A model generated the notes under the pieces. It did not search any database. It saw only the letters and a program-made list of their open reading frames with translations, and had not been told where the DNA came from. Below, piece after piece: positions 60,214-63,721 of a stretch of 64,000 nt of DNA. The translations under genes were made by a program, and so were the position numbers. Source of the stretch: Aphrocallistes beatrix (Eukaryota > Porifera > Hexactinellida > Sceptrulophora > Aphrocallistidae); NCBI GenBank assembly GCA_963281255.1, contig OY725500.1, positions 1,488,001-1,552,000 on the forward strand, given 5' to 3'. Each line of letters opens with the position of its first letter. Within the stretch, counting starts at the first letter, position 1.

Positions 60214-60849
60214 ATATATACATAGCCTACTCTAATAATGCCTCACATAGTCAGGTCAAAATAAGAAGCAAATAGTCCCAACCCCAAAAAAATTGCAAGA
60301 AATTGTTTTATTGCGTTTTTCCGTAGTATCATGTATTAAGAGTAACATACTAAAAGTTCACCGAAATCGGAATATCCGAAAGTGATTTCGCACGACCCCG
60401 TCGTTGACCCCGGACTATAAAAATCGCCGGTTTTGAAAACTGAGATTTAACCTTTCAAATGATTGTAAAGCAGTTTTTATTGTCATATTCGTGCTCAGCA
60501 TCAAATTTCCGGCAATTTGATATATATATTGACTATATTTTGAGCAAATATTTTGATCCCTCCCTAGCAACAGCCTGGAATGTAAAAATTCCGATCTCCA
60601 AATTTGGCGTAAACCATATCGAGTGACCCCTTGTTTTTCTCGGCTATGCTTGCTGAGTATGAATTTCTTAATATAAATTGTCTAGAAGGGTTAGTTTTAA
60701 AATATTATGGTTTGCGGCTGGTTGTATTCATTTATTTTTAATGGTAAACATACTCTAAATTTTTGTTTTGTCCCTCTAACTCCTATGAAATATAAACATG
60801 GAAAATTTAAGTGGCATTGATGGATATATACGTAGATGGATTGATATGT

Positions 60850-61128
60850 TCACATTTCAATTTCATCTTCGGTTTCATCATCCGATGCAATTCCTTCTTT
60901 AATATTGCCACAGTTGTTATCTTGGCATCGTCCGCATGCTTGGGAACAGTTGAGTCTTTGTTTTCTGCAGCTACATCTGAGACTACTACATCCTGTGGAA
61001 CAGTTACTGTGGATCATTTTGAGGAGTGCTTCGGGTGCAGGGTTACTGTCCAACATGACTGGGATTAGGCTGTTATCTTGGCTGTTCCATCCCCATTCGG
61101 TAACCTCCATACCTTCAGCCATGCCCAT
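60850..61128 (-). pseudogene. Mirror copy of the CXC-domain 3' end in the left arm
   Basis: Encodes MEVTEWGWNSQDNSLIPVML, PAPEALLKMIHSNCSTGCSS and CSCRKQRLNCSQACGRC with CQDNNCGN, then an acidic C-terminus (SDDETEDEIEM). Its cysteine set is fuller than in the right-arm copy, which reads RCSSSKQG where this has RCSCRKQR. Confidence 0.8.
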
Positions 61129-61167
61129 CTACATCATCACCTGGAATTAGCTCCTCAGAGAGTGAAA

Positions 61168-62039
61168 TTTCGTAGCGGAGACTGTAGTAATATGGAGGAT
61201 TCCCTTTCCAATCAAGCCAACAAACATACCCTCATCCGTTTCATTTCTGAACGTATGAGAGAAAGAGGGTGCCATGTAATACAGGCTGAGGAGGATGCCG
61301 ATGTTGACACTGAAGGCAGCAGTATCAATGGCATCTTTCAAGACAACAACTCTCATAGGCGATGATACGGATCTATTGGTTCTGTTGCTGCACTACACGC
61401 CTAACAACAATACAAAGAAGATATACTTCTGCTCGGATAAAGGGAAACCAACCGTAGTGTATGATATCAAGGTGATAAAGCAGGTGCTTGGGGGCGAAAT
61501 CTGCCACAGCCTGCTTTTTCTGCATGCATTCACGGGGTGTGACACCACTTCCAGCACTTTTGGGCTCGGAAATAAGTCTGCTCTGTACAAGTTCAAAGAG
61601 GATTCCATCTTTAAAAGCTATGCTAGGGTGTTTTCTGAACCAAACCAAGACACAGTTGTGATATAAAGCACTGGTTTGACTTGAGATACACTATCTCTGC
61701 AAGAAAGTGAGTGAAGCCAAAAGCTTCGTTACATCCGAAAGACTACCAGCTACAGCCTCTGCTACGAAATTTCAGGTGATGATGTGGATGGGCATGGCTG
61801 AAGGTATGGAGGTTACCGAATGGGGATGGAACAGCCAAGATAACAGCCTAATCCCAGTCATGTTGGACAGTAACCCTGCACCCGAAGCACTCCTGAAAAT
61901 GATCCACTATAACTGTTCCACAGGCTGTAGTAGCCTCAGATGTAGCAGCAGTAAACAAGGACTCAACTGTTCCCAAGCATGCGGACAATGCCAGGATGAC
62001 AACTGTGGCAATATGAAAGAAGGTAATTGCATCGGATGA
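61168..62039 (+). pseudogene. PIN/XPG-like plus Tesmin/TSO1-like CXC protein, frameshifted
   Basis: Fragments in order: NKHTLIRFISERMRERGCHV (frame ending 61365); after a frameshift near 61300, TTTLIGDDTDLLVLLLHY and LLFLHAFTGCDTTSSTFGLG with NKSALYKFKEDSIFK (to TAA, 61663-61665); then after a stop and another frame change, SFVTSERLPATASATKFQ and the C-terminal WGWNSQDNSLIPVMLDSNPA with the Cys cluster CSTGCSSLRC...CSQACGQCQDDNCGN. The GDDTDLL and GCDTT...G.GKSAL pattern is like the acidic core of PIN/XPG-type nucleases; the tail is like CXC DNA-binding domains. Such fusions are common, uncharacterised multicopy proteins in invertebrate genomes. The fold assignment is inference. Confidence 0.6.
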
Positions 62040-63721
62040 TGAAACCGAAGATGAAATTGAAATGTGAACATATCAATCCATCTACGTATATATCCATCAA
62101 TGCCACCTAAATTTTCCATGTTTATATTTCATAGGAGTTAGAGGGACAAAACAAAAATTTAGAGTATGTTTACCATTAAAAATAAATGAATACAACCAGC
62201 CGCAAACCATAATATTTTAAAACTAACCCTTCTAGACAATTTATATTAAGAAATTCATACTCAGCAAGCATAGCCGAGAAAAACAAGGGGTCACTCGATA
62301 TGGTTTACGCCAAATTTGGAGATCGGAATTTTTACATTCCAGGCTGTTGCTAGGGAGGGCTCAAAAATATTTGCTCAAAATATAGTCAATATATATATAT
62401 CAAATTGCCGGAAATTTGATGCTGAGCACGAATATGACAATAAAAACTGCTTTACAATCATTTGAAAGGTTAAATCTCAGTTTTCAAAACCGGCGATTTT
62501 TATAGTCCGGGATCAACGACGGGGTCGTGCGAAATCACTTTCGGATATTCCGATTTCGGTAAACTTTTAGTATGTTACTCCTAATACATGATACTATGGA
62601 AAAACGCAATAAAACAATTTCTTGCAATTTTTTTGGGGTCATGCATCATATTGACCTGACTAACAGTAAAATAACCAAGGATGCGGTAATAACCGAATGG
62701 ATTAATACACGATTAGCCTAAAATCGTTAACCATGTAGGATAGGCATTAAGAATGTATTACCAGCATATATAAACATGGCATCAAAGTACATATATCCGT
62801 TGTCAAAATTACGATTAGTCATCATATCATTGCGCAACAGGTCATTTTAAGCACTATTTTGCCAATTTTCTAAGCTGTTTAAAGCCTACTTCTAAATGTT
62901 ATTAAGGTATAATTTTTGTGTATAACTAAGATTAGTACGAGTTGATTTGAAAAATTTAAAAATTTTCAATGGAATGTTGTTACATTTCTAGGTTGCTATG
63001 GTAAAGCCTTTTGATCAGTTTGAGCCATATCCTGCAAACTGTAAGAACTAGGTCTTCAAATTTGATCGTATTTGATAGGCAATTGGCTACTTCCTATTAG
63101 GTAATAATACAATTTAAACTTCTAAATTCACAGACTATAGAGTTATGCGACAATTTAGTGTTTTGGTCACGTTCTTAAAATCAACCCATAACTCAAAACT
63201 TGTTGAATTTAGAAGTTCAAGTTGTATTATCACCTAATAGGAAGTAGTCCATTGCCTATCAAACACGATCAAATTTGAAGATCTAGTTACTACAGTTTGC
63301 ACGAAATGGCCAAAACTGAGCAAAATGCTTTACCATAGCAACGCAGGAATGTAATAACATTCCATTGAATTTTTCAATTCAACTCGTACCAATCTTAGTT
63401 CGACACAAAAATCACACCTTAATACCATTTAGAAATAGGGTTGAAACAACTTAGGAAATCGCTAAAATTGTCCTTAGAATGACCTGTTGCACAATGATAT
63501 GATGACTAATCGAAATTTTCCAACGGATATATGTACTTTGATACCATGTTTATATATGCTGGTAATACATTCTTAATGCCTATTCTGCATGGTTAACAAT
63601 TTTAGGCTAATAGTGTATTAATCCATTCGGCTACTACTTCATCCCTAGTCCATAATTTTCAGTCTACTGTGAGGCATTATTAGAGTAGGCTATGATATAT
63701 AGTACTTTGATGCCGTGTTTA

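Follow-up and report, generated by a model that had tools for sequence, protein, structure and literature searches.

What kind of element is a 2,415-bp palindrome that carries a broken gene, and how did it come to hold the 3′ end of that gene in mirror image? The question is raised by positions 60248-62662 of a 64,000-nt window, the whole stretch of DNA analysed here, from the genome of the sponge Aphrocallistes beatrix (100.5 Mb in 28 contigs); coordinates without a prefix refer to this window. The palindrome is very probably a non-autonomous, foldback-type DNA transposon copy of a nuclease-encoding lineage. It is one of dozens of palindromic copies in a multi-copy family, and profile comparison supports its gene remnant as an XPG/FEN1-family nuclease core. 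The lineage itself is likely, though by no means certain, to be AcademX of the Academ superfamily.

Architecture of the element

The element and its parts, with target-site duplication and terminal inverted repeat abbreviated TSD and TIR, are as follows.

60245..60247: left TSD, ACA, read from the sequence
60248..60259 (+): left 12-bp TIR, TAGTCAGGTCAA
60260..60280 (+): left-end-specific stretch outside the palindrome, which marks the left end
60281..61148 (+): left arm
60424-60607: homology, inside the left arm, to the long TIR of the relative L063 (84% over 186 bp)
60850..61128 (-): mirrored CXC-tail open frame, 92 aa, from open-frame reading
61149..61767 (+): unique centre of the palindrome, from the arm alignment
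61280..61666 (+): part of a putative nuclease core of the XPG/FEN1 type, GDDTDLL...HAFTGCDTTSS.FGLG, 128 aa, with the frame interrupted on either side; family profile against XPG genes, E 5.3e-7
61680..62039 (+): next part of the gene, in a different frame, with cysteine-rich CXC tail, from open-frame reading
61768..62639 (-): right arm, mirror of the left arm, from the arm alignment
62640..62650 (-): right-end-specific stretch
62651..62662 (-): right 12-bp TIR, reverse complement of TAGTCAGGTCAA
62663..62665: right TSD, ACA, read from the sequence

A first-pass annotation of the sequence had described 12-bp outer TIRs between ACA duplications and arms of about 860 bp, and both descriptions hold. 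The TIRs are perfect over 12 bp (93% over 15 nt), ACA stands on both sides, and the arms measure 868 and 872 bp, with 97.2% identity over 872 columns. The description can be refined in one respect: the arms and the TIRs are discontinuous, being separated by the end-specific stretches, the left one of 21 bp and the right one of 11 bp. Because these stretches are largely not complementary, the left end of a copy can be told from the right. The left arm contains terminal and 3′ non-coding sequence together with the mirrored CXC 3′ end of the gene. Tandem repeats in the arms amount to two rows of period 11 with fewer than three copies each, and long arrays are absent.

The annotation also reported a gene remnant with a mirrored 3′ end, and such a remnant does exist, in broken form. 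The sequence with GDDTDLL...HAFTGCDTT occupies a single open frame (61280-61666, +) and is followed by TAA; the stretch ahead of it is read in a different frame (61069-61365, +), and the CXC tail in yet another.

A multi-copy family of palindromes

The exact 12-mer TAGTCAGGTCAA occurs at 145 sites in the genome, compared with 16 for a reversed-letter control. Among 100 of these end sites listed, 17 facing pairs (within about 5 kb) were taken, which together with the window copy give 18 elements; a TIR pair 15 kb apart (L026/L027), which is not one element, was left out of the count, and L028 was not used. Inverted arms are present in all 18 elements, and each of the 17 pairs matches the window element. 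The left-end-specific stretch recurs in all 17 of the other elements and the right-end-specific stretch in 16, the exception being L017, where it is altered. The annotation had proposed that the same TIRs might flank further copies with 3-bp TSDs, and this is the case: exact 3-bp duplications flank 15 of the 18 elements, including the window copy, against 0.59 expected from mismatched flank pairs. Other lengths are nearly absent (4 bp, 0/18; 5 bp, 1/18, ATATA at L022; 6 bp, 0/18; 7-9 bp, 0/17).

A search with the protein of the window gene gave at least 180 matches in the genome (150 of 478 candidates scored). Thirty matching loci were excised, corresponding by coordinates to 27 distinct elements, and 29 of them carry arm sequence on both strands; L050 carries it on one strand. 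The same scan covered 34 loci in total, and of the additional ones L059, L061 and L062 have arm sequence on both strands and L060, which is not a copy, has none. Among the 150 of 180 matches listed, at least 19 of 56 core-bearing clusters also include a mirrored match.

An XPG/FEN1-type nuclease core

The annotation had guessed that the gene was PIN/XPG-like, and profile-profile comparison favours XPG. Three XPG-family genes of this genome, located with PF00867 and labelled XPG-, EXO1- and GEN1-like in this analysis, served as the reference, and the query profile combined the nuclease core of the element with its relatives (14 rows). The two profiles align with hhalign at 52 bits (E 5.3e-7), and nine palindromic rows alone still reach 50 bits (E 7.2e-7), these E-values referring to a single comparison of shallow profiles. 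The best of 30 column-shuffled controls scored 18 bits, although shuffling also left only about 155 match columns of the original 234. In the alignment the acidic stretch of the I-domain, EDxD and GCDxxxxxxGxG are paired one after the other, and the conserved acidic motifs (I-domain and GCD) occur in the FEN1 order. The palindromes begin just 3′ of the FEN1-type VFDG motif and lack it; the longer relative L073 has it as VFDGY and L074 in degenerate form.

Other searches were less informative. Pfam returned nothing on the window pieces and, on the relatives, only weak matches at chance level apart from DUF6589 in L060 and L074. Neither this genome nor any of the control genomes has a match to XPG_I_2 (PF12813), which makes that search uninformative. 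A profile search of PDB gave one chance match (E 0.83), AlphaFold2 run on the window fragment alone, without an alignment, reached a pLDDT (predicted local distance difference test) score of 33.8, and none of 113 pattern matches in viral contigs was confirmed. Taken on the profile evidence, the window gene remnant is supported as an XPG/FEN1-family nuclease core.

Full-length and longer relatives

The annotation had also suggested that the protein might belong to a mobile element and that full-length copies be sought. One such case is L063 (L063 2366-6945; C2:1342865-1347444), a full-length element of 4,580 bp that belongs to a sister family. It is bounded by TIRs of 348 bp (94.6% identity) with ends TAGACAGGGCAA and by the TSD GTA, and its gene is a single reading frame of 1,174 codons that one stop divides into open stretches of 665 and 509. 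Used as a query, the nuclease half of this gene picks up the window gene directly (E 6.6e-6, 32% identity). Another copy, on C12 (C12:3325555-3330694; ends in L081 and L082) has both 12-bp ends, the TSD CAA and a left TIR 96% identical to that of L063. It is not full-length, having a deletion that runs from near the right end into the gene (3′-deleted), and its gene contains stops. TAGACAGGGCAA occurs at 7 genome sites against 10 for the control, and its two facing pairs are L063 and the C12 copy.

The long TIRs of these relatives are similar to the arms of the window element. Positions 166-351 from the end of the L063 TIR match positions 177-360 of the window element (84% over 186 bp), and the C12 TIR matches the window arms at 82% over 220 bp. 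Since the matching parts lie at a nearly equal distance from the end, the long TIR is probably ancestral.

Longer genes were found with a protein sequence of the invertebrate family as the query, followed by pieces of L066. L066 and L073 are 89-92% identical over their coding blocks, and both genes are broken by stops and frameshifts. They have the same order, namely a common upstream region, the nuclease and the cysteine-rich tail, with L073 having an N-terminal cysteine-rich part in addition. Their mutual homology ends no more than two bases from the right end of L066, TAGTCTGGTCAA, which differs from the window end by one mismatch and from the right end of L073 by one letter; TAGTCTGGTCAA is not commoner in the genome than its control (10 against 8). 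Parts of the upstream region and the nuclease recur, more diverged, at L074 and L075. A third gene type, from the same nuclease family, was observed at L083 (C7:3351500-3357500), with a GCDTVSSFAGIGKKTAW core, a CXC tail and an open frame of 414 codons; no element ends were recognised there.

The suggestion that the gene is part of a mobile element is supported by these loci: in L066 and L073 a gene of this kind extends as far as a right end like that of the window element, and L063 has a gene with the same nuclease core enclosed by related TIRs and a 3-bp TSD. L063 is a full-length relative; no intact or linear copy of the exact window subfamily was found among the loci examined.

The region 5′ of the nuclease is called transposase-like here from its position and resemblance rather than a domain match. 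A DNxD...T...H stretch is present in this region at three of the six loci scanned. DUF6589 (PF20231) scores above the cut-off at one locus only, L060 (C19:1131298-1131738, -), and below it at L074. A HEEADTR-type stretch was observed 3′ of the L060 match on the same strand, and the upstream half of the L063 gene is weakly similar to L060 (E 1.6e-4). Because of this stretch and this similarity, DUF6589 may belong to the same transposase group, a lead only; no mention of it was found in the literature searched.

How the palindromic copies evolve

Once in place, do such palindromes spread as they are? An arm tree was built from both arms of all 18 elements, and a core tree from 17 of them (L012, which has an insert, was omitted). 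The left arms of L009, L010, L013, L015, L019 and L025 cluster in one clade (99/94), and their right arms belong to a second (98/92) that includes a single left arm as well, L014_L. For L011 and L020, the two left arms are paired, as are the two right arms (100/98 each). On this grouping, the masters of these six copies and of the L011/L020 pair already had the palindromic form, with unequal arms. To judge from these eight copies, on which the claim rests, some lineages have spread as palindromes.

Other copies have followed a different course. Both arms are sisters in L012, L016, L017, L018, L022, L023 and L024, the window copy and L023 form a four-arm clade (100/99), and the mean arm identity is 0.953 within copies against 0.920 between them. 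As read from these groupings and identities, the arms of many copies have been homogenised. Over the whole arm tree, left and right labels are no more clustered than when shuffled (12 changes against 12.4), a signal that is absent because the homogenised copies mix the labels. L014 and L021 match neither pattern clearly.

With the two end types as reference, seven elements have the centre in "+" orientation and 11 in "-". The orientation of the centre tracks the tree closely (two changes against five in shuffles), and a minimum of two changes is required by the starred branches: L024 ("+"), for instance, lies within a 100/100 clade with L011 and L020 ("-"). On this tree, the centre has flipped at least twice. 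Recombination between the arms would most simply explain both the homogenisation and the flips.

Coding decay was assessed on 36 of the 47 projected copies, after short and duplicate rows had been dropped. Differences from the majority are spread almost evenly over the three codon positions (0.045, 0.049 and 0.048), and 14 of the 36 copies have a stop in the projected frame. The palindromic copies are thus mostly passengers decaying without coding constraint. Against this stands the pooled ratio of nonsynonymous to synonymous change (dN/dS), which is 0.71 rather than 1 in the same 36 copies and may hint at an older constraint.

Origin, classification and alternatives

The window element shows the marks of a foldback-type transposon: long inverted arms, a middle domain, flanking TSDs and a non-autonomous state. 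Its autonomous parent would have had TIRs of several hundred base pairs and a gene for a transposase, an XPG nuclease and a CXC tail. The palindrome may have arisen by an internal deletion together with the extension of one TIR inward over the 3′ end of the gene. Template switching while the excision gap is repaired is the usual proposal for such palindromes. The palindromic copies would then have been mobilised in trans by a transposase acting on their ends, and later the arms would have been homogenised in many copies and the centre flipped, most simply by arm-arm recombination. As no intact or linear copy has come to light among the loci examined, the parent of the subfamily and the palindrome-forming step are only inferred.

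A bolder idea, and a long shot, is that palindromes arise routinely in this transposon group or even serve it as a functional form. In this view the structure-specific XPG/FEN1-type nuclease of the element itself, at work on flaps, hairpins or four-way junctions while the element is excised and the gap repaired, would make and rework the inverted arms, so that homogenisation and flips would be driven by the element and not solely by host recombination.

The nuclease of AcademX belongs to the XPG type. In PMC10045372, where the wording is only "nuclease", the Academ superfamily is divided into AcademX, with a TSD of 3 or 4 bp, and AcademH, with one of 9 or 10 bp, a difference linked there to their nuclease and helicase. 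The lineage is filed under AcademX because both of its testable features are found: TSDs of 3 bp in 15 of 18 elements, with GTA at L063 and CAA at the C12 copy, and a nuclease encoded by the element, as recognised by hhalign against the XPG-family genes of the genome. The term "little-described transposon group", which the annotation had held out, is probably too strong, since nuclease-encoding Academ elements with TSDs of 3-4 bp are already named in that paper. Mutator-type Foldback was rejected, as its 8-10-bp TSD was not seen and 3-bp TSDs were found instead.

Several observations weigh against this account of the window element. TSDs are absent from three of the 18 elements, the exact subfamily lacks an intact or linear copy among the loci examined, and L066 and L073 yielded no recognisable left end. 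In the region 5′ of the nuclease, Pfam has nothing to show but DUF6589, above the cut-off in L060 and below it in L074. The upstream half of L063 has no significant match to L066, L073, L074, L075 or L083 (best E 0.21). Finally, under the Repbase family rule of at most one mismatch over end positions 1-11 (PMC4455052), the window end passes against L066 (one mismatch) and fails against L063 (two).

Long palindromes are difficult to assemble, and a false inverted duplication was among the concerns of the annotation; 18 insertions with the same structure in different places, 15 of them with TSDs, refute this for the family and make an assembly artefact practically inconceivable. The seven copies with sister arms would suit a history in which each copy was palindromised independently, repeatedly re-formed from linear parents. 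Such a history is unlikely, however: the copies have the arms and gene fragment of the window element in common, it is already hard to hold where arms group by side (the L009-type six and L011/L020), and a linear parent was not seen among the loci examined. The nuclease gene could also be foreign to the element, picked up by a transposon from a different superfamily (Pack-type capture), given that XPG-family genes occur as host genes and that Pfam shows no adjoining transposase domain in the pieces scanned. This is very improbable in view of L066 and L073, in which the nuclease core follows the common upstream region in the same order, with parts recurring at L074 and L075, and it is largely contradicted by L063, whose 1,174-codon frame with the nuclease and one stop lies between 348-bp TIRs and a TSD.

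A more open matter is whether the lineage belongs to another superfamily with 3-bp TSDs, be it PIF/Harbinger, an EnSpm-like group or one yet unnamed. PIF/Harbinger elements are defined by TTA/TAA (TWA) targets and EnSpm-like elements by CACTA ends. Here, just three of the 15 TSDs are Harbinger-like (TTA twice, TAA once), and the ends do not start with CACTA. The case for Academ consists of TSD length and nuclease only, and no similarity is detectable between the upstream region of L063 and that of L066/L073, which leaves room for such a placement; a nuclease together with a 3-4-bp TSD is the reported mark of AcademX (PMC10045372). Another superfamily is therefore a real though lesser possibility, and AcademX is retained as the likely home.

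For the widespread protein family with GDDTDLL...GCDTT and a CXC tail, hitherto uncharacterised, these results point to a likely home as a FEN1/XPG-type nuclease on 3-bp-TSD transposons. A single genome further offers a natural series of palindrome spread, arm homogenisation and centre inversion, and a nuclease-carrying lineage with dozens of foldback copies would allow one to ask about the role of the nuclease in palindrome making. The case is well documented and establishes no new principle.

Other elements at the loci

Twelve positions past the end of the element, the window contains a second, different, near-complete hairpin (62674-63649). Three inverted pairs follow one another in this hairpin (137, 155 and 197 nt; 84-90%), the innermost arms lying 21 bp apart, and it is probably a separate element resembling a miniature inverted-repeat transposable element (MITE). 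Open frames labelled in this analysis as mariner-type transposases were observed at L058 (2229-3401, -; 391 codons) and L065 (140-1015, -; 292 codons).

Comparison with known systems

Compared with the XPG-, EXO1- and GEN1-like genes of the same genome, the nuclease of the element has the acidic motifs and GCDxxxxxxGxG in the same order. It differs in that the N-terminal VFDG part is missing from the palindromes, a CXC tail is added and the gene resides in mobile elements. No paper on XPG-carrying transposons turned up in the literature listings, from which no absence from print or from Repbase is claimed.

Galileo, of the P superfamily, has a TSD length and a transposase that differ from those of the window family. 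Although it belongs to another superfamily, it likewise has long foldback-like TIRs outside the Mutator superfamily (PMC4168063).

AcademX, a lineage for which PMC10045372 refers to Kapitonov and Jurka 2010 and Kojima 2020, resembles the window family in its 3-bp TSD and in the nuclease, here encoded by the relatives of the element. Unlike AcademX, the window copy is a palindromic derivative without a transposase.

Foldback structure is linked mainly to Mutator elements, with exceptions (PMC4079207). Tetris and the other foldback elements treated there have in common with the window family long inverted arms that make up most of the element, a middle domain and a non-autonomous state, and Tetris, too, has no parent that has been found. 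In contrast, Tetris has a TSD of 8-10 bp, compared with 3 bp in the window family (PMC4079207). The window family also stands apart from Tetris in having arms that lack long tandem arrays and contain instead the 3′ end of a gene.

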